Shown here in pieces: positions 43,541 to 50,691 of a stretch of DNA of 64,000 bases. Under the pieces are notes generated by a model. That model saw nothing but the letters and a program-made list of their open reading frames with translations, searched no databases and was not told where the DNA came from. Position 1 is the first letter of the stretch. Every line of letters starts with the position of its first letter. The translations under genes were made by a program, and so were the position numbers. Source of the stretch: Halarcobacter ebronensis (GTDB lineage Bacteria; Campylobacterota; Campylobacteria; Campylobacterales; Arcobacteraceae); contig NZ_CP053836.1 of the NCBI RefSeq assembly GCF_013201825.1, positions 186,001 through 250,000 of the forward strand, read 5' to 3'.

Positions 43541-44289
43541 TTCACTTTTTTTGCCGAATCTCGGCGTTAAAAATCTAAAATAACTCGTCACATACTTCTA
43601 GTATGCTCCTCACTAAAATCCACCATTTGCCTTGAATCTAAACATAACTAGCTGTTTTTGATATTGTAAAAACTCAAAACAGTAAACTTAACAACGAATT
43701 ACAAAATATAAATTGAGTATCACACCAATTAAAATAAAATGGTATTAAAAAAGCAAAGGTCAATTTCCACTCTCCCACATTTGAGAAGCCGAGTGTTTAT
43801 TTCTCTTTTCGAAAAAGTTTTTCAACTGTTTGAGCGTCAAAAATATAACTAATTTATGTTTTAGCGAGTTTTGAAAAACAGAAAAGAGAAAGAATAAACG
43901 AGGGCAGTTTCACCTTCGAAACTTTGTGGGATGGTTTCTTTCTTACTTTCTTTTTCATAAAAGAAAGTTGGTAAGAGAGAATAATATATAGTAAAAGTTT
44001 AGTTACACTTAAATATATTGATAATAGTTTTACAATAATACAACATAATATATTTATCATTTTGTTAAACTATCAAGATTTTCATCCGATAGTCATACAA
44101 AATAATAAGATATCAAGGATATACCTTGATAATCCAACATAAATAATTGCATATTCCTTGATATAATTTTATATTTTATTGAATTTAGACTAATTAAGGC
44201 TTAATTGAGTTAATATCTTTACATTTTTATTGTTAAAATATTAGATGTTTTTATATATTATTTATATATAATGTATTATTAATAAGTAG
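43541..44289. repeat. Non-coding spacer with a long imperfect inverted repeat
   Basis: No gene is supported in these 749 bp. A long imperfect inverted repeat spans 43773-43931, with terminal TCCCACA/TGTGGGA. Inside it, GAGTGTTTATTTCTCTTTTC (43791) matches the complement of the arm at 43881-43902, with a 3-nt insertion. A second hairpin at 43941-43976 has TCTTACTTTCTTTT/AAAAGAAAGTTGGTAAGA. This looks like a repeated extragenic palindrome or a small non-autonomous element. A 68-codon frame on the minus strand (43854-44060) overlaps the repeat and looks spurious. Confidence 0.5.
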
Positions 44290-44309
44290 TTATAGAGAAA
44301 AGAAGAAAC

Positions 44310-45464
44310 TTGAAAAACTTTACAGAAATTATTAAAGAAATAAAAGCACCAAGCATTGAAGATAATATTGAGTTAATCAAATCTTCAAAAGCAAAAAAAG
44401 ATAATGTTGAAAATTATAAAATAAGTAAAGAAATAAATGCTTACAATTTATATTTATATCTCTTTGCTCGTTTTGGAAAACCTAATGGATTATTATCTCT
44501 ATTTAGAGAAGAAGATAGCGACCAAATGTTTCACTGGCATTATATTTTTGAATATAACGATAGCATTATTCAAATAATGTGTACAACATATAGAATAGAA
44601 GTTTTTATGCCTACTAACTTAGTATCATCACAAGATGAATGTATATCATTTCTAAAACAATTAATAGAAGATATTCAAAATTATAAAGCAGAAGCTACAA
44701 AAACACGTAAAATAATTGAAAATTGGGAAATGATAGTCAATCCTTTTGCAAAAGTACAAAAGCAAATCAATATTTTTATAGATGAAATTGAAAATCTTGT
44801 AAGCGAAATACCAGACTTTAAACATTCTCATGTTGATGGCACAGAATTGTCTTTGGAAGAATTTTCAAAATGGGCTCAATTAACAGAAGAATTATCTGCA
44901 AAAAGTTATGCTCTTAAATGCTTAGTTCCTGTTTATATTGAGACTTTTTTAAATTTTACAATTCAAATTCTTGCAAAACAAGAGATAAAAGATGATAGAG
45001 ATAAATTTGAGGAATATATAAGAGAACAAATTCATATTAAAATACAAAAACTTCACGAAAAATGTATTGGATTTATTTATCCTATTGATTGGGAAGGTGA
45101 TATATGTAAATCCATCCATACAATATTTAATAAGAGAAATGATTTACTGCATGGTAATTTTAATATTAAAAGTTTAAAATATGGAGAAATAGGTTTTATT
45201 AAAAATATGCCATTATTTAAAAAGTTCTCTAGCTTTCAAGAAGATATATTGAATCTTTCTCTAGCAACTGAAAACTCAAATGTTGCAATAAAAGAAATAG
45301 AAGATGCTCAATTATTTATGATGTACGTTTTAATAAGTTTAGATACTTCAACTAGAAAAGAACTAAAAAGAATGTTAGAATCTTATACTTTAGGCTGGAA
45401 TAAATCTACAAAACGTTTTGGAATACTATTTAATAACAACTCAGTAGATTTCAAAGTTGGGTAA
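44310..45464 (+). CDS. Cassette 1: protein with C-terminal HEPN-like RNDLLH motif
   Basis: The 384-aa protein starts at a TTG preceded by AGAGAAAAGAAG, 20 bp into the cassette. No named family is recognised for the first 200 residues. In the helical C-terminal part, RNDLLHGN (Arg276, His281) matches the Rx4-6H active-site motif of HEPN ribonucleases, with the polar residue after Arg that is usual. The setting after KSIHTIFNK is also typical of Apea-like HEPN domains. A defence or toxin role is inferred. It is followed 8 bp later by attC1. Confidence 0.65.
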   Translation: MKNFTEIIKEIKAPSIEDNIELIKSSKAKKDNVENYKISKEINAYNLYLYLFARFGKPNGLLSLFREEDSDQMFHWHYIFEYNDSIIQIMCTTYRIEVFMPTNLVSSQDECISFLKQLIEDIQNYKAEATKTRKIIENWEMIVNPFAKVQKQINIFIDEIENLVSEIPDFKHSHVDGTELSLEEFSKWAQLTEELSAKSYALKCLVPVYIETFLNFTIQILAKQEIKDDRDKFEEYIREQIHIKIQKLHEKCIGFIYPIDWEGDICKSIHTIFNKRNDLLHGNFNIKSLKYGEIGFIKNMPLFKKFSSFQEDILNLSLATENSNVAIKEIEDAQLFMMYVLISLDTSTRKELKRMLESYTLGWNKSTKRFGILFNNNSVDFKVG

Positions 45465-45472
45465 TGGTAAAT

Positions 45473-45542
45473 GTATAACAAGTACGAGGAACGCAATAAT
45501 TTACCCTAGCGGGGAAATTATCGCTCACGACAAACGTTAGTC
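45473..45542 (+). other. attC1
   Basis: R'' GTATAAC and R' GTTAGTC enclose a folded region whose central hairpin is ATAATTT-ACCC / GGGG-AAATTAT. The flanking L boxes (ACGAGGAACG and CGCTCACG) pair imperfectly, with unpaired bases on one side. Recombination would occur after G45536. Confidence 0.85.
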
Positions 45543-45561
45543 TATACAAAAGGAACAAAAA

Positions 45562-45906
45562 ATGACAACAACAGTAAAAATTGATTTATTTAGTCCAAGA
45601 TGGGGACATACTGATGAGTATAAAATTGTTTTAGAAGAGAATATTATGACCATTTCAATGAGTGCAAGAAAAGCAACATGTGAATTTGATTCAGAAGAAA
45701 ATTACATATGGAGTAAAGATTTGGGTTCAGATGCTTTATTTAAAATATTAGATAATGATAGTATATGTTATCCAAGAAATTTAAAAAGTTCATTAGTCAA
45801 AATCTGGAGAACATGGGTAAGTGGAAAACTAAGTGATATTGAAATACAAGATAAATTTAAAGAACTTGAAACCACAATTAATACAACAACTAAAAATAAT
45901 TCATAA
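45562..45906 (+). CDS. Cassette 2: small unknown protein, 114 aa
   Basis: The protein begins VKIDLFSPRWGHTDEYKIVL and is soluble, without cysteine motifs, signal peptide or membrane segment. I recall small hypothetical proteins with a SPRWGHTD-like start from cassette arrays, but cannot verify this. AAAGGAAC precedes the ATG, which is 26 bp inside the cassette. The cassette of 446 bp is of ordinary size. Function unknown. Confidence 0.75.
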   Translation: MTTTVKIDLFSPRWGHTDEYKIVLEENIMTISMSARKATCEFDSEENYIWSKDLGSDALFKILDNDSICYPRNLKSSLVKIWRTWVSGKLSDIEIQDKFKELETTINTTTKNNS

Positions 45907-45919
45907 AAAGCAAGATAAA

Positions 45920-45988
45920 GACTAACAAAACAGTGGAGCCAATAAATTACCCTGCGGGCAATTCATCAGCTCATTTTAAACGTTATGA
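45920..45988 (+). other. attC2
   Basis: R'' GACTAAC and R' GTTATGA flank L boxes TGGAGC and GCTCA, which pair with one extrahelical G, and a central hairpin AATAAATT-ACCC / GGGC-AATTCAT. It is nearly identical to attC3, as in homogeneous arrays. Confidence 0.9.
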
Positions 45989-46007
45989 TTAGAAAGGAAT
46001 ATGATAT

Positions 46008-46745
46008 ATGGCAGGTGTTTTTTTAAGTCATTCCTCTGTTAATAAACCATTTGCTAGAAGACTAGGAAATGATTTAAGGCAGTATGGGGCGAAGGTATGG
46101 ATTGATGAAGCTGAAATTAAAATTGGTGATTCATTAATTGAAAAAATTTCAGAAGGATTATCTGAAACAGATTTTGTCATCGTACTACTGTCAAAAGCTT
46201 CTTGTGAATCAGAATGGGTCAAAAAAGAAGTTAATATTGCTTTAAATAAAGAGATTTATGGGAAACAAGTTGTTGTACTTCCTTGTTTAATTGAGGATTG
46301 TAATATACCTTTATTTTTAATTGATAAAAAATATGCAGATTTTAGGGATAGTACAAAGTATGTTCAACATAGACAAGAACTAATTTCAACTATGGGATTA
46401 GCCGAAAAATCAGATGATGATTTATTTTTAGATCAGCATATATTTTATGATTTAGAAGATTTAAATGACGGATTTGATGCAGATACAATAAGATATTTTT
46501 CAAAATCTGATTTTCAAAAAGTATTAGAAAGGGTAAAAATGTTTAATATAAATATTTATGGCATTGAACCTTGGCCTAATAAAGAATTTTATAATGTTAT
46601 TGTTTATGAAGAATTTGGAAAAGAGGCTAATGATTCTGAGTGGTATTATGAAGCATTTGAAAAGTTTGTAAAAGAAGGTGTAGAGGATTATTTTTCAGCT
46701 TCTTATGGTGTGCCTCAAGAATTAATTGAGATATTTAAGAAGTAA
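46008..46745 (+). CDS. Cassette 3: TIR-domain protein
   Basis: The 245-aa protein begins with a TIR domain (about residues 1-130): VFLSHSSVNKPFARRLGNDLRQYG, then VWIDEAEIKIGDS (BB-loop region), then FVIVLLSKASCESEW followed by VKKEVNIAL. Trp70 and Glu74 occupy the place of the catalytic Glu motif in NAD-cleaving TIR proteins. The remaining 115 residues are an unrecognised acidic domain that may sense the trigger. NADase activity and phage defence are inferred from family knowledge. GAAAGGAAT precedes the ATG, 26 bp into the cassette. Confidence 0.88.
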   Translation: MAGVFLSHSSVNKPFARRLGNDLRQYGAKVWIDEAEIKIGDSLIEKISEGLSETDFVIVLLSKASCESEWVKKEVNIALNKEIYGKQVVVLPCLIEDCNIPLFLIDKKYADFRDSTKYVQHRQELISTMGLAEKSDDDLFLDQHIFYDLEDLNDGFDADTIRYFSKSDFQKVLERVKMFNINIYGIEPWPNKEFYNVIVYEEFGKEANDSEWYYEAFEKFVKEGVEDYFSASYGVPQELIEIFKK

Positions 46746-46749
46746 GGAC

Positions 46750-46818
46750 TCATAACAAATCAGTGGAGCCAATAAATTACCCTGCGGGAAATTTATCGGC
46801 TCATTTTAAACGTAACCA
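46750..46818 (+). other. attC3 with altered right end
   Basis: R'' TCATAAC, L boxes TGGAGCC/GGCTCA and hairpin AATAAATT-ACCC / GGG-AAATTTAT match attC2 closely. The R' end reads GTAACCA instead of GTTRRRY, lacking one T. The array therefore ends here in a non-cassette junction or a mutated site. Confidence 0.82.
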
Positions 46819-46937
46819 TATATAATACCTTTTAAATACTAATCCTCAGTGCCATATGTATTGGACTAATACAAAAACTTGATTTAATTTAATTATATTG
46901 GTATAATACAACATAATTCGCCTACGGGCAGCCCCGT

Positions 46938-47348
46938 CTAGTCTTTAGACGGGATAAACAATCTAGAAATTTTTTCATTTATTTTCGCAAAATCTATTTT
47001 ATTTATCATTCCAATTCTTGTCATTAGTCTATTTTTATCAAATGTTTTTAATTGAAGAATCATAGCAGAATTTTCTACTAAGCCTTTTTTTGTATTATAC
47101 GAAAACTGATGAAAATAATCATTCTCTTTTAAGGTGCTCGTTAAAGGTAAGCCAACAAAAATATCCTTTGTTAATTTTCTTACAATTAAGACAGGTCTTT
47201 GAAATTCATTTCCTTTGCCATACTCTTCATTACCAATATTTTGTCCAAGTCTTAACCAAAAAATTTCACGCTGTTTAAAACCTACACTATTTATTTTCTT
47301 ATGAGTATCTTTTTTTATCCTATTCCATCTATCAAAATCTTCTTCCAT
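46938..47348 (-). CDS. MazF/PemK-like toxin family protein
   Basis: The 136-aa protein (ATG at 47348 with AAGGA 5 nt upstream; the frame extends 12 codons further without a better site) has the MazF/PemK-like barrel. Visible parts are REIFWLRLGQNIGNEEYGKGNEFQRPVLIVRK, VGLPLTST and a final LMTRIGMINKIDF strand. Members are mRNA endoribonucleases, often paired with an antitoxin. No antitoxin gene is adjacent. The stop codon lies in a CCCGTCTA/TAGACGGG hairpin that may act as terminator. It faces the cassette array on the opposite strand. Confidence 0.75.
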   Translation of the reverse strand: MEEDFDRWNRIKKDTHKKINSVGFKQREIFWLRLGQNIGNEEYGKGNEFQRPVLIVRKLTKDIFVGLPLTSTLKENDYFHQFSYNTKKGLVENSAMILQLKTFDKNRLMTRIGMINKIDFAKINEKISRLFIPSKD

Positions 47349-47427
47349 AAGAGTCCTTATAGTTTTTAAAACTATATCAAACAAATTAGTTTATATATAA
47401 AAATATTGCAGATTGTTATATTATTAA

Positions 47428-48990
47428 TTAAAGTCCTGGTGCTTTCCACATAGAAGTAGCTAATCCTTGATCCACAAGTTCCAACTGCTTTTTATACACC
47501 TCTTGCCATTTCTCTTTTATCTCATCATATAGCTTTTTATTTTCCATATTCGGTAAATACTCTTTATCCCATACTACAAGCTCTTTTGCGGCACTTTTAA
47601 GGTCTTTATATATTCCTGCGCCAACTGCTGCACTCATTACTGCTCCCAAGGCTGTGGCTTCTGTTACTTTTGGTATTTTGATTTTACACCCTGTTACATC
47701 TGCTAGGGTTTGGCACCAAAGTTTTCCTTTACTAGCGCCTCCTGCAAATACTATTGTATCAAATTCACTTTTTGTAAAGTTTTTTACTTTTTCTAAGTTT
47801 ATGGCACTAACTATACAAGCATTCTCTTGCAAGGCTTTAAACATTGAAGCTTTATTGCAAATATTTGGATTAAGGTTTAGGTTTATAAAACTTGGGCTTG
47901 CATGGTACCATTTACCATAATTCATAGTATCACTAAATATTGGCATAATTCCATATGAGCCTACTGGTACATCTTTTGCATTCTCTTCTAGAATCTCATA
48001 GGGATCTTTATTTTGTTTTTTTGCTTCAATTTTTTCCAAATCACAAAAGGCATCTCTAAACCATCTCATTATAAGACCACAAAAGAAAGTGATACACTCT
48101 GCTTGGGATTGCTCTGGGATAACATGGGGATTGATTCTAAGGCTCATATCTTTTGGTGGTAAAATGTCACTTGGGATATTTACTATTTGTTGCCAAAAAG
48201 AGCCACCTAAGATGGCAACTTGTCCAACTTCCACAACTCCAAGTCCAGCACTTCCCAGCTGTACATCTCCACCACCTGTTACAACTTTTGTATTTACACT
48301 TAATGTGGTCTCATGGCTTGCTTTTTGTGTAACATTTCCAATTACTGTTCCAACCTCATAACAAGGACAGAAGATATCATCTTTTATTCCAATCTCTTTT
48401 GCCATAGAGCTATCCCAAACTCTATTTTTTAGTGAGAAGATTCCAGTTGTTCCTGCGTTACTAGGGTCAGTTGCTATTACACCTGAAAGTTTTGCTAATA
48501 TCCAGTCCCCTATCATAGAGATAGTTGTAACTTTTTCATAAAGTTCAGGTTTATTGTTTTTAAGCCATAAGATTCTAGGAAGTGCACCAAGGGCAAAGGT
48601 CTGTCCAGAGGTTTTATAAAACTTCTCTTCAATATTTTCAAAAGAGGTTTTTAGATATTTTACTTCTTTGTAGGCTCTTGCATCAACATTTGCAACACCC
48701 CAAAGTTCATTCCCATCTTTATCATATAAAGCTATAGCTTCTCTCATACTTGTGGCACTAACAGCTAAGATATCTTCAGGGTTAATTGATGCTTTATCTA
48801 TAGCAGTTTTAATACATTTTTTTGTTAATTGCCAGTTTGTCTCAAAGTCAAAGCTCATACTATTTGCTATGCCGTTTTCTTCTAGGTGCGTCCACTCCTC
48901 TTGAAAAGATGAGATTTGCTTACCTTTTGTATCAAAAATAACAGCTCTTATACTTCCTGTCCCTGCATCAATTGCCATTAAATATTGCAT
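47428..48990 (-). CDS. lsrK: Autoinducer-2 kinase LsrK-like FGGY carbohydrate kinase
   Basis: LsrK phosphorylates the linear form of AI-2 (DPD). The 520-aa protein follows LsrK closely over its length: YLMAIDAGTGSIRAVIFD at the start, AVSATSMREAI, VTGGGDVQLGSAGLG, LRINPHVIPEQSQAE, MRWFRDAFC, MPIFSDTMN, and the ending LATSMWKAPGL. I chose the ATG at 48990 with AAAGGAA upstream. It ends a three-gene operon with a class II aldolase and an LsrG-like protein. Activity on a related sugar is possible, but similarity to LsrK specifically is strong. Confidence 0.88.
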   Translation of the reverse strand: MQYLMAIDAGTGSIRAVIFDTKGKQISSFQEEWTHLEENGIANSMSFDFETNWQLTKKCIKTAIDKASINPEDILAVSATSMREAIALYDKDGNELWGVANVDARAYKEVKYLKTSFENIEEKFYKTSGQTFALGALPRILWLKNNKPELYEKVTTISMIGDWILAKLSGVIATDPSNAGTTGIFSLKNRVWDSSMAKEIGIKDDIFCPCYEVGTVIGNVTQKASHETTLSVNTKVVTGGGDVQLGSAGLGVVEVGQVAILGGSFWQQIVNIPSDILPPKDMSLRINPHVIPEQSQAECITFFCGLIMRWFRDAFCDLEKIEAKKQNKDPYEILEENAKDVPVGSYGIMPIFSDTMNYGKWYHASPSFINLNLNPNICNKASMFKALQENACIVSAINLEKVKNFTKSEFDTIVFAGGASKGKLWCQTLADVTGCKIKIPKVTEATALGAVMSAAVGAGIYKDLKSAAKELVVWDKEYLPNMENKKLYDEIKEKWQEVYKKQLELVDQGLATSMWKAPGL

Positions 48991-49037
48991 TGAATTCCTT
49001 TTAAAATGTCCCATTTTAAAAGGGACTTCATAAATTA

Positions 49038-50213
49038 CTACTTTTTCAGTTTTGCCTGTTCTAGTTCCCAATACTCCATCTCAAAGCTATCTTTTAGACT
49101 AATACTTTCATATCCACCAAGCTTATCTGCTTTTAAGACTGCATTCATAGTATGGGTTATAATATCATCAATAATATTTGCCTCTTTTTCAGTTTTTCCA
49201 ATGGTTATAGTTCCGTAGTTTTTTACTACTATCCAGTTTGGACTTGGATTTAACATAACTTCATCTTTTGCAAACTTATTAAAATACTCTATATAGCTCT
49301 TTTTATATCTATCTATTGCTTTTTGAATATCTTTATCTTCTAAAATAAGTGGTTCTCTTTTTGTTCTAATAATATGCTCAGGTGTTAGAACTCCTCTTGT
49401 GGCAAAGGCGTTTAGGTTATTTTGACTTGCATAGTGTAAAGATAAGGCAGATTGATTTATTTTTAAAGATACTTCATACCCTTTTTCTTGTGATAATATT
49501 TTTTGAAGCTCTTCTAAGTTTACCTCAAATCTTGGCATAAATTTTTCTATTTTTAAACTCGCATTTTTTTCCAAAAACTCTTCCGCTAAACTAACAGCAG
49601 CAATCATTTTGTCATAAGATTTTTTTGCATCATCATCAAAGGTAAAAATCCCATGATTGTGTAAGATTATCCCCTCACAACTTTCCCAATTGATATCTTT
49701 GCACATCTCATAAATCTTTTTAGCCAAAATAAATCCAGGCATTACATAAGGAACTATTAGGAAATTTGGGAAGATTTTTTTTATATTTTCTATTCCTGTT
49801 TTACTATTTGAGATAGTAACCACTGCATCAGCATGGGTATGATCTACAAATTTATATGGAATAATGGCATGTAGAATTGCTTCAACTGATGGATTAGGAG
49901 CACTTTTGTCTATCATAGCAGCTTTTTGTTGACTAACCATATCAGAATCACTAAGAGTCTTTAACTTAGCCATCTCTTTTAGTACATCAAGTTTTACAGG
50001 GGCAAATCCTTCCTCTTTTATACTTACTAAATCCCAGCCACTTCCTTTTACATAAAGAATATCTTCTCCATCAACTTTTGATTTTACAGAAGTGTTACCA
50101 CCGCCATGTAGAACTAGCTCATCACTTTGTCCTAAAAGATTTGATGTATATACTCTAAACTCTAAATCAGTTTTAAGAGATGATGCTTTTTCTTGATTCC
50201 ACAGATTTTGCAT
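49038..50213 (-). CDS. Class II aldolase/adducin-family protein
   Basis: The 391-aa protein has the class II aldolase fold: LVLHGGGNTSVK (about residues 34-45), VDHTHADAVV with two zinc-binding histidines (about 130), and GIILHNHGIFTFDDD (about 190) with the third. A C-terminal extension of about 150 residues resembles the aldolase half of larger aldolase/dehydrogenase fusions, whose dehydrogenase half is absent here. It may cleave the phosphorylated product of the adjacent LsrK-like kinase, taking the place of LsrF. That role is inference from the operon. Confidence 0.82.
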   Translation of the reverse strand: MQNLWNQEKASSLKTDLEFRVYTSNLLGQSDELVLHGGGNTSVKSKVDGEDILYVKGSGWDLVSIKEEGFAPVKLDVLKEMAKLKTLSDSDMVSQQKAAMIDKSAPNPSVEAILHAIIPYKFVDHTHADAVVTISNSKTGIENIKKIFPNFLIVPYVMPGFILAKKIYEMCKDINWESCEGIILHNHGIFTFDDDAKKSYDKMIAAVSLAEEFLEKNASLKIEKFMPRFEVNLEELQKILSQEKGYEVSLKINQSALSLHYASQNNLNAFATRGVLTPEHIIRTKREPLILEDKDIQKAIDRYKKSYIEYFNKFAKDEVMLNPSPNWIVVKNYGTITIGKTEKEANIIDDIITHTMNAVLKADKLGGYESISLKDSFEMEYWELEQAKLKK

Positions 50214-50215
50214 AA

Positions 50216-50503
50216 TTAACCTAAAATCTCTAAATGCTCAGTATATTTATCTTCACAGTACTGCTCATAAGTTGATTTATAAACTGCATAGTGCTCTGTT
50301 TTTGCATGTCCTGCTAAAGCCTCTTGGTTAGCCCAAGACTCAACAGCATAAAACTTTCTTCTATTTTCAGTGCATTGAAAAATATTATAAAAAATCACTC
50401 CAGGTTCAGCTTTGCTTGGTTCTACCATAGCAGTTAAAAGATCTTTCATAATATCTTCACATCCCTCTTTTGCTATAAATGTAACTCTTTTTGTAATAGT
50501 CAT
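50216..50503 (-). CDS. LsrG-like antibiotic biosynthesis monooxygenase-fold protein
   Basis: The 95-aa ferredoxin-like barrel protein has the ABM pattern: RVTFIAKEGCEDIMKDLLTAMVEPSKAEPGVIFYNIFQ, then RRKFYAVESWANQEALAGHAKTEHY. LsrG, which isomerises phospho-AI-2, belongs to this fold. Being first in an operon with an LsrK-like kinase makes an LsrG-type role plausible, but ABM proteins are diverse. It ends 2 bp before the aldolase gene. Confidence 0.7.
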   Translation of the reverse strand: MTITKRVTFIAKEGCEDIMKDLLTAMVEPSKAEPGVIFYNIFQCTENRRKFYAVESWANQEALAGHAKTEHYAVYKSTYEQYCEDKYTEHLEILG

Positions 50504-50691
50504 TTTATTAATCCTTTCTTATTAAGTAAAGATTATATTATAAAGGAATCTTTCTTATAAAGTGAAAATAGATATAAATAGTAATATATAAAATATAAAT
50601 TCTTTAAAATTTAAAATACCTAAAAGATATAACTAAATCTTTATCACATATTATATAAAATCAAAATTCGATTTTATATATAAAGAGAATT

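Follow-up and report, generated by a model that had tools for sequence, protein, structure and literature searches.

Which compound is processed by a compact operon that carries an autoinducer-2 (AI-2) kinase, an ABM protein and a class II aldolase, and does this aldolase do the job of LsrF? The question is raised by three minus-strand genes of Halarcobacter ebronensis, which lie in the window analyzed here, a stretch of 64 kb (C1:186001-250000, where C1 is contig NZ_CP053836.1). An earlier note on this DNA had described a small set of AI-2 processing genes at 47428-50503, and all three were found at that position, in the tight order ABM protein, class II aldolase and LsrK kinase (50503-47428). 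Our reading, to which we assign a probability of roughly 0.7, is that the operon is a module for the phosphorylation and breakdown of AI-2 (DPD) that acts on the LuxS product of the cell itself. The features are as follows:

50216..50503, minus strand: ABM-fold protein of 95 aa (Pfam ABM), first gene of the operon; proposed phospho-AI-2 isomerase
49038..50213, minus strand: class II (zinc) aldolase of 391 aa (Pfam Aldolase_II), without a short-chain dehydrogenase half; proposed substitute for LsrF
47428..48990, minus strand: LsrK, autoinducer-2 kinase of 520 aa (equivalog NF008187), start corrected from 49071
50537..50566, minus strand: weak promoter-like site ahead of the ABM gene (TTCACT-18-TATAAT, 10/12)

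The start codon of the aldolase gene is located 2 bases past the stop codon of the ABM gene. For the kinase, a TTG start at 49071 had been assumed, which is 27 codons too early and falls within the aldolase gene. An ATG at 48990, right after an AAGGA motif, is the likely start, and 18 of 29 kinase homologues align only from residues 24-28 onward. Therefore, the start was moved to this ATG. The promoter scan yielded 28 sites in the region versus 23.9 expected, and the site upstream of the ABM gene is not significant by itself; the terminator scan of the region gave a count close to the shuffled expectation. In the window genome and at two further loci (L074, L075), the operon block is flanked by carA and pgpA, while the carA-pgpA site is present without the block in seven genus members that lack LsrK above the cut-off (seven read of 11; genus n = 16). 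Within the genus, the block is thus present or missing as one unit between carA and pgpA. The association of the three genes is not due to chance, because the set recurs across the Campylobacterales with different flanks.

The kinase scores 861.5 bits against the NCBIfam autoinducer-2 kinase equivalog NF008187, with a cut-off of 528 bits, and 273 of 519 aligned residues (53%) are identical to E. coli LsrK. The best match in the PDB is the autoinducer-2 kinase 5ya0 with 612 bits, followed by a glycerol kinase with 91.9 bits. The C-terminus SMWKAPGL, which the earlier note had called typical, was confirmed. An alignment of nine LsrKs, including those of Salmonella, Ensifer and Deinococcus, contains 150 invariant positions. 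Five LsrK residues, T21, S23, F312, R322 and D384, are located near the substrate or ATP sites according to the accessible part of a published study (PMC8028047). The first four are identical in all nine sequences, the window kinase included, and the position of D384 is occupied by N in the window kinase. Family membership strongly supports that the kinase is LsrK, and it would accordingly be expected to phosphorylate DPD.

The earlier note had suggested to look in the genome for LuxS and for an AI-2 uptake system. LuxS is encoded at C1:257120-257572, 22 kb from lsrK and just beyond the window. It is present in 117 of 120 genomes (the own genome and 119 relatives), and because it is nearly universal it does not discriminate. 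The genome-wide search for lsr components covered LsrB, LsrF and LsrR. In the own genome, no match was obtained with E. coli LsrF as query at E 1e-3, with E. coli LsrB as query, or with the LsrR family PF04198, so that the claimed absence of LsrABCD, LsrR and LsrF holds for LsrB, LsrR and LsrF. Across all 120 genomes, the matches did not exceed 34.1 bits for LsrF (15 genomes) and 30.9 bits for LsrB (11 genomes). As to uptake, the search thus yielded no LsrB, while two AI-2E-family proteins are present; these say little about import, because the same family was matched in 13 of 14 control genomes.

These results bear on the possibility that the genes belong to a true AI-2 sensing and uptake system, which is served by an unrecognized transporter and regulator encoded elsewhere in the genome. 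The presence of LuxS and of a gene for an EamA transporter, which is adjacent to and divergent from the operon in the window, would fit. EamA was rejected as a part of the system, since the gene occupies the same site in three relatives without the operon (G010, G002, G008) and is not beside the operon at L074 and L075. With no LsrB or LsrR family protein in the own genome, and no transporter or regulator recurring beside the operon in the loci listed across the genomes, a sensing system is very improbable. Salvage or detoxification of the cell's own DPD is the preferred reading, because LuxS is encoded in the genome and the genes are not accompanied by an importer or regulator; the operon probably recycles or detoxifies the cell's own signal and does not listen to AI-2.

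The distribution of the genes links the aldolase to the kinase. LsrK is present in 44 of the 120 genomes, counting only matches above the cut-off (53 genomes gave a match of any strength, and nine of them have only weak ones under 85 bits). The aldolase was found in 42 of these 44 genomes versus 1 of 76 without LsrK (a 17.5-bit match in G103 was left out), and the ABM type in 34 of 44 versus 1 of 76, counting only matches with E < 1e-18 (35 of 62 genomes). The p-values of the Fisher tests of co-occurrence are uncorrected for shared ancestry. The two LsrK genomes without the aldolase, G073 and G090, are 83% and 90% complete, respectively; ten LsrK genomes are devoid of the ABM protein. In the 42 genomes with both genes, aldolase and LsrK are less than 1 kb apart in 20 and 1-10 kb apart in five, while they are more than 30 kb apart on the same contig in one and on different contigs in 16. 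Therefore, the link exceeds mere neighbourhood, even if many of the assemblies are fragmented.

The function of the ABM protein is less clear. It scores 52.4 bits against Pfam ABM (cut-off 23.1), and its predicted fold (mean pLDDT 90.7) superimposes on E. coli LsrG 3qmq with a Z score of 16.1 and 1.5 Å over 95 residues, and on 2gff with a Z score of 15.4. Several ABM proteins that are not LsrGs tie with 3qmq as fold matches. Against the LsrG equivalog, the protein reaches only 27.4 bits at a cut-off of 135 bits, and three relatives reach 28.6 to 35.8 bits; the identity to E. coli LsrG is 33% over only 43 residues, and in the alignment it lacks the GPR(T)K-type stretch that LsrGs have at the C-terminus. 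The designation "LsrG-like" is therefore justified for the ABM fold, but full LsrG membership was dropped in view of the equivalog score. The gene order in two relatives connects the ABM protein directly with AI-2 synthesis: in G024, the ABM gene precedes luxS by 69 bp on the same strand, with aldolase and lsrK together elsewhere, and in G032 it lies one gene upstream of luxS. Fold and gene linkage suggest that the ABM protein may be a phospho-AI-2 isomerase. This isomerization step may be wrong, because the protein is below the LsrG cut-off and does not have the GPR(T)K-type stretch.

A small cupin gene directly follows lsrK in several Campylobacterales (e.g. L062, L065 and L055), and it occurs in 13 of the 44 genomes with LsrK and in 1 of the 76 without. 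Among the LsrK genomes, it is present in 7 of the 10 that lack the ABM type versus 6 of the 34 that have it. The window genome contains no match at E 1e-8. Cupins with 52% and 47% identity follow lsrK in a Salmonella lsr locus and in Deinococcus psychrotolerans, respectively, and a "mannose-6-phosphate isomerase" described beside lsrK is probably the same cupin. The accessible part of a published study describes this "mannose-6-phosphate isomerase" as consistently adjacent to lsrK and as a member of the Salmonella LsrR regulon (PMC3420918).

The aldolase scores 78 bits against Pfam Aldolase_II and is not a homolog of LsrF, which has a class I aldolase-type barrel. Its best NCBIfam family is NF006197 with 471 bits, below the cut-off of 627 bits, and the match covers positions 1-410 of 583. 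With 391 aa, the protein lacks the C-terminal short-chain dehydrogenase domain and is thus not a bifunctional aldolase/dehydrogenase. E111, H125, H127 and H187 as well as N40-T41-S42 of the GGNTS loop are shared by no fewer than 43 of 44 sequences and invariant in 13, and the window aldolase has the residues of a class II aldolase of the FucA/AraD type. By analogy with FucA, we take the Glu and the three His to be the zinc and catalytic residues and GGNTS to be the phosphate loop. The fold of the domain matches 3m4r (Z 31.0), the fuculose-1-phosphate aldolase FucA (Z about 18) and the Bacillus thuringiensis class II aldolase 6btd/6btg (Z 18.0, 3.0 Å over 175 residues), the substrate of which is 5-deoxyribulose-1-phosphate. 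The closest characterized relatives split 1-phospho-deoxyketoses and yield dihydroxyacetone phosphate (DHAP). A search of viral contigs gave no relative of the aldolase.

In Pararhizobium, a bifunctional enzyme of the same family is encoded near mtnK/mtnA, and the mtnK/mtnA pathway yields 1-phospho-5-deoxypentuloses; other members sit in rhamnose clusters. The proximity to methylthioribose genes and to rhamnose genes, together with the missing AI-2 importer and regulator, would be in agreement with another substrate of the operon, i.e., a five-carbon deoxyketose or dicarbonyl, e.g. 5-deoxyribose from radical-SAM reactions, with a kinase that has drifted away from DPD. However, such a drift is unlikely in view of the kinase score far above the LsrK cut-off and the invariant positions shared by nine LsrKs. 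In addition, the ABM gene is beside luxS in G024, the same type of aldolase occurs in lsr loci with LsrACDB, and the operon does not contain a sugar isomerase, which an aldose route would need. DPD is thus retained as the substrate of the preferred reading.

The lsr loci with this type of aldolase include those of rhizobia. On pSymB of Sinorhizobium meliloti 1021, lsrA, lsrC, lsrD, lsrB and the aldolase gene at 638061-639299 follow one another on one strand in the order of transcription, and lsrR, lsrK and lsrG are on the opposite strand. The same arrangement was found in Ensifer canadensis, Rhizobium sp. WL3 and a record named Roseateles sp. XES5, and none of the four loci contains LsrF (three by a search with E. 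coli LsrF, WL3 by annotation). In all 18 records common to the aldolase and LsrB listings, the aldolase gene lies 67-72 bp past lsrB on the same strand; four further aldolase records have no counterpart among the 60 LsrB matches listed. Among the listed matches in plasmid records, true LsrF (>50% identity) comes from enterics, Sagittula, Shinella and a few others, and the listed Sinorhizobium matches to LsrF are about 30% identical and located elsewhere on the replicon. Hence, in loci with an AI-2 importer, a class II aldolase occupies the position that lsrF has in enterics, and the replacement of LsrF is not peculiar to H. ebronensis.

The earlier idea that the aldolase replaces LsrF is thus supported twice, by the co-occurrence with LsrK in the 120 genomes, non-neighbouring pairs included, and by the aldolase of the same family in the place of lsrF. 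Because the aldolase tracks LsrK and its rhizobial counterpart holds the place of lsrF after lsrB, the window aldolase very probably does the job of LsrF, as judged from linkage and position. When 44 aldolase domains were arranged in a tree, the campylobacterial enzymes (99/98) and those of the rhizobial lsr loci (100/100) came out as two groups and not as one clade, and the rhizobial lsr aldolases cluster with other rhizobial bifunctional enzymes (95/84). Orthology of the two was therefore rejected, and a function cannot be transferred by orthology from the rhizobial to the campylobacterial aldolase. The tree favours two separate recruitments, with some uncertainty since it is midpoint-rooted and long branches were flagged (partial L033, L013, L023 and L017 were left out).

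In E. coli, LsrK adds the phosphate to C5 of AI-2, and the product is processed by LsrG and LsrF, according to the accessible part of a published study (PMC2728841). The E. coli annotation names an isomerase activity for LsrG and a thiolase activity for LsrF. In the window organism, LuxS, encoded 22 kb away and recognized by its family match, would make DPD, and LsrK, assigned by family membership, would phosphorylate it and thereby trap it in the cell. The ABM protein may turn phospho-DPD into 3-hydroxy-2,4-pentanedione-5-phosphate, as LsrG does. Phospho-HPD, the product of LsrG, can be regarded as the 4-keto form of a 1-phospho-5-deoxypentulose. The class II aldolase would grip the phosphoketone end via the zinc, cut the C-C bond that its relatives also split, and free DHAP. 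The second product would most likely be acetate, formed by hydrolysis (retro-Claisen), because the LsrK-linked aldolases of both lineages mostly lack a dehydrogenase half. If a dehydrogenase is fused to the aldolase or otherwise at hand, reduction before cleavage would lead to acetaldehyde in place of acetate. The operon would serve to recover carbon and to remove a reactive dicarbonyl, with no role in signalling.

In a reductive variant, a short-chain dehydrogenase would reduce phospho-HPD to 5-deoxypentulose-1-phosphate, and a retro-aldol reaction would yield DHAP and acetaldehyde. Dehydrogenase-fused aldolases are encoded in five of the 120 genomes (G028, G044, G054, G076, G095), four of which have LsrK, and in G054 the fused gene is immediately followed by lsrK; moreover, relatives in the family act on such compounds. 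However, the dehydrogenase half is missing from the window aldolase, from most of its relatives and from the rhizobial lsr aldolases, and a search of the own genome at E 1e-25 gave no close separate copy of it. The bifunctional relatives may also apply the dehydrogenase to the aldehyde product instead. Prior reduction therefore seems rather unlikely.

For the Campylobacterales, we tentatively propose, at somewhat less than even odds, a receptor-less and importer-less AI-2 salvage that consists of LuxS, LsrK, an ABM or cupin isomerase and a class II zinc aldolase. Hydrolytic retro-Claisen cleavage would lead to DHAP and acetate, and this aldolase class would have been recruited twice, i.e., also in rhizobial lsr operons, in place of the CoA-dependent thiolase LsrF.

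Compared to known systems, the operon appears to be a variant of the AI-2 pathway that is new in its cleaving enzyme. With the lsr operon of E. coli and Salmonella (lsrKR lsrACDBFG) it shares LsrK, an ABM-fold protein and probably a C-C cleaving last step; in contrast, the searches of the window genome gave no LsrB, LsrF or LsrR, a class II zinc aldolase stands in for the LsrF thiolase, and the ABM protein is below the LsrG cut-off. The S. meliloti-type loci share LsrK, an ABM/LsrG protein, an aldolase without a dehydrogenase half and the absence of LsrF from the locus, but carry LsrACDB and LsrR in addition. The aldolase of these loci shares 36-39% identity with that of the window and is outside the campylobacterial clade, and the LsrG shares 42-44% identity with E. 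coli LsrG. The same aldolase domain family includes the bifunctional class II aldolase/short-chain dehydrogenases (PRK08324 series, RhaD TIGR02632), whereas the window protein is the aldolase half only and is linked to LsrK instead of rhamnose genes. The B. thuringiensis aldolase 6btd/6btg resembles it in the fold of the catalytic domain and in the type of substrate proposed here, and differs by an identity of 22% in the structural alignment, a single domain and another pathway. No report of the aldolase in place of LsrF was found in the open literature searched. In the accessible parts of that literature, lsrK and a class II aldolase are mentioned together only in a paper on the LsrF structure, in a general sentence on aldolase classes.

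In Campylobacterales, AI-2 may be either a signal or a by-product: luxS is nearly universal in the 120 genomes, yet lsrB was not detected in either Helicobacter or Campylobacter according to the accessible part of a 2008 survey (PMC2561040). A module of kinase and aldolase without receptor and importer makes the by-product or salvage reading testable, and the operon gives a concrete, testable fate of AI-2 in a group with luxS and without the lsr receptor. It also predicts that S. meliloti, which has the lsr importer, would degrade AI-2 by a class II aldolase and not by LsrF.

In two genomes the ABM gene, which encodes the proposed phospho-AI-2 isomerase, lies 5' of luxS, immediately ahead of it in G024 and separated from it by one gene in G032. 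The distribution of the ABM gene is partly complementary to that of a small cupin gene, and the cupin is a candidate for an alternative phospho-AI-2 isomerase. The order lsrK, small cupin gene was seen in Campylobacterales, Salmonella, and Deinococcus.

L064:5275-6147 and L094:174-2536, ABM gene 5' of luxS
L003:3064-3435, L084:4470-4820, and L086:9968-10366, small cupin gene 3' of lsrK

Second lsrK copies and a plasmid lsr locus were also found. The gene order of the latter (L085, Roseateles sp. XES5) is rhizobial, and the record carries the flag UNVERIFIED_ORG; possibly the organism is misnamed or there was a recent transfer.

G018:C16:28477-29952, second lsrK copy with four internal stops
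G092:C36 and C50, second lsrK copy, apparently intact

In the window, the carA-lsrK interval encodes a 384-aa protein without assigned function, a PemK/MazF-type toxin, and a protein with a TIR domain, the last resembling antiphage TIR proteins. Other relatives have different genes at this spot, which suggests an insertion or defence hotspot.

43541-47427, variable interval, carA to lsrK

One Arcobacter metagenome assembly has an intact lsrK beside an aldolase gene that is divided between two frames, which overlap; the cause is either a sequencing error or decay. In Pararhizobium, the cluster that holds a bifunctional aldolase/dehydrogenase also includes mtnK, mtnA, and a sugar transporter, and this grouping suggests a salvage route for 5-deoxyribose or methylthioribose.

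L033:3-1171, split aldolase gene, the same in L013
L088:7001-15275, Pararhizobium bifunctional aldolase/dehydrogenase cluster
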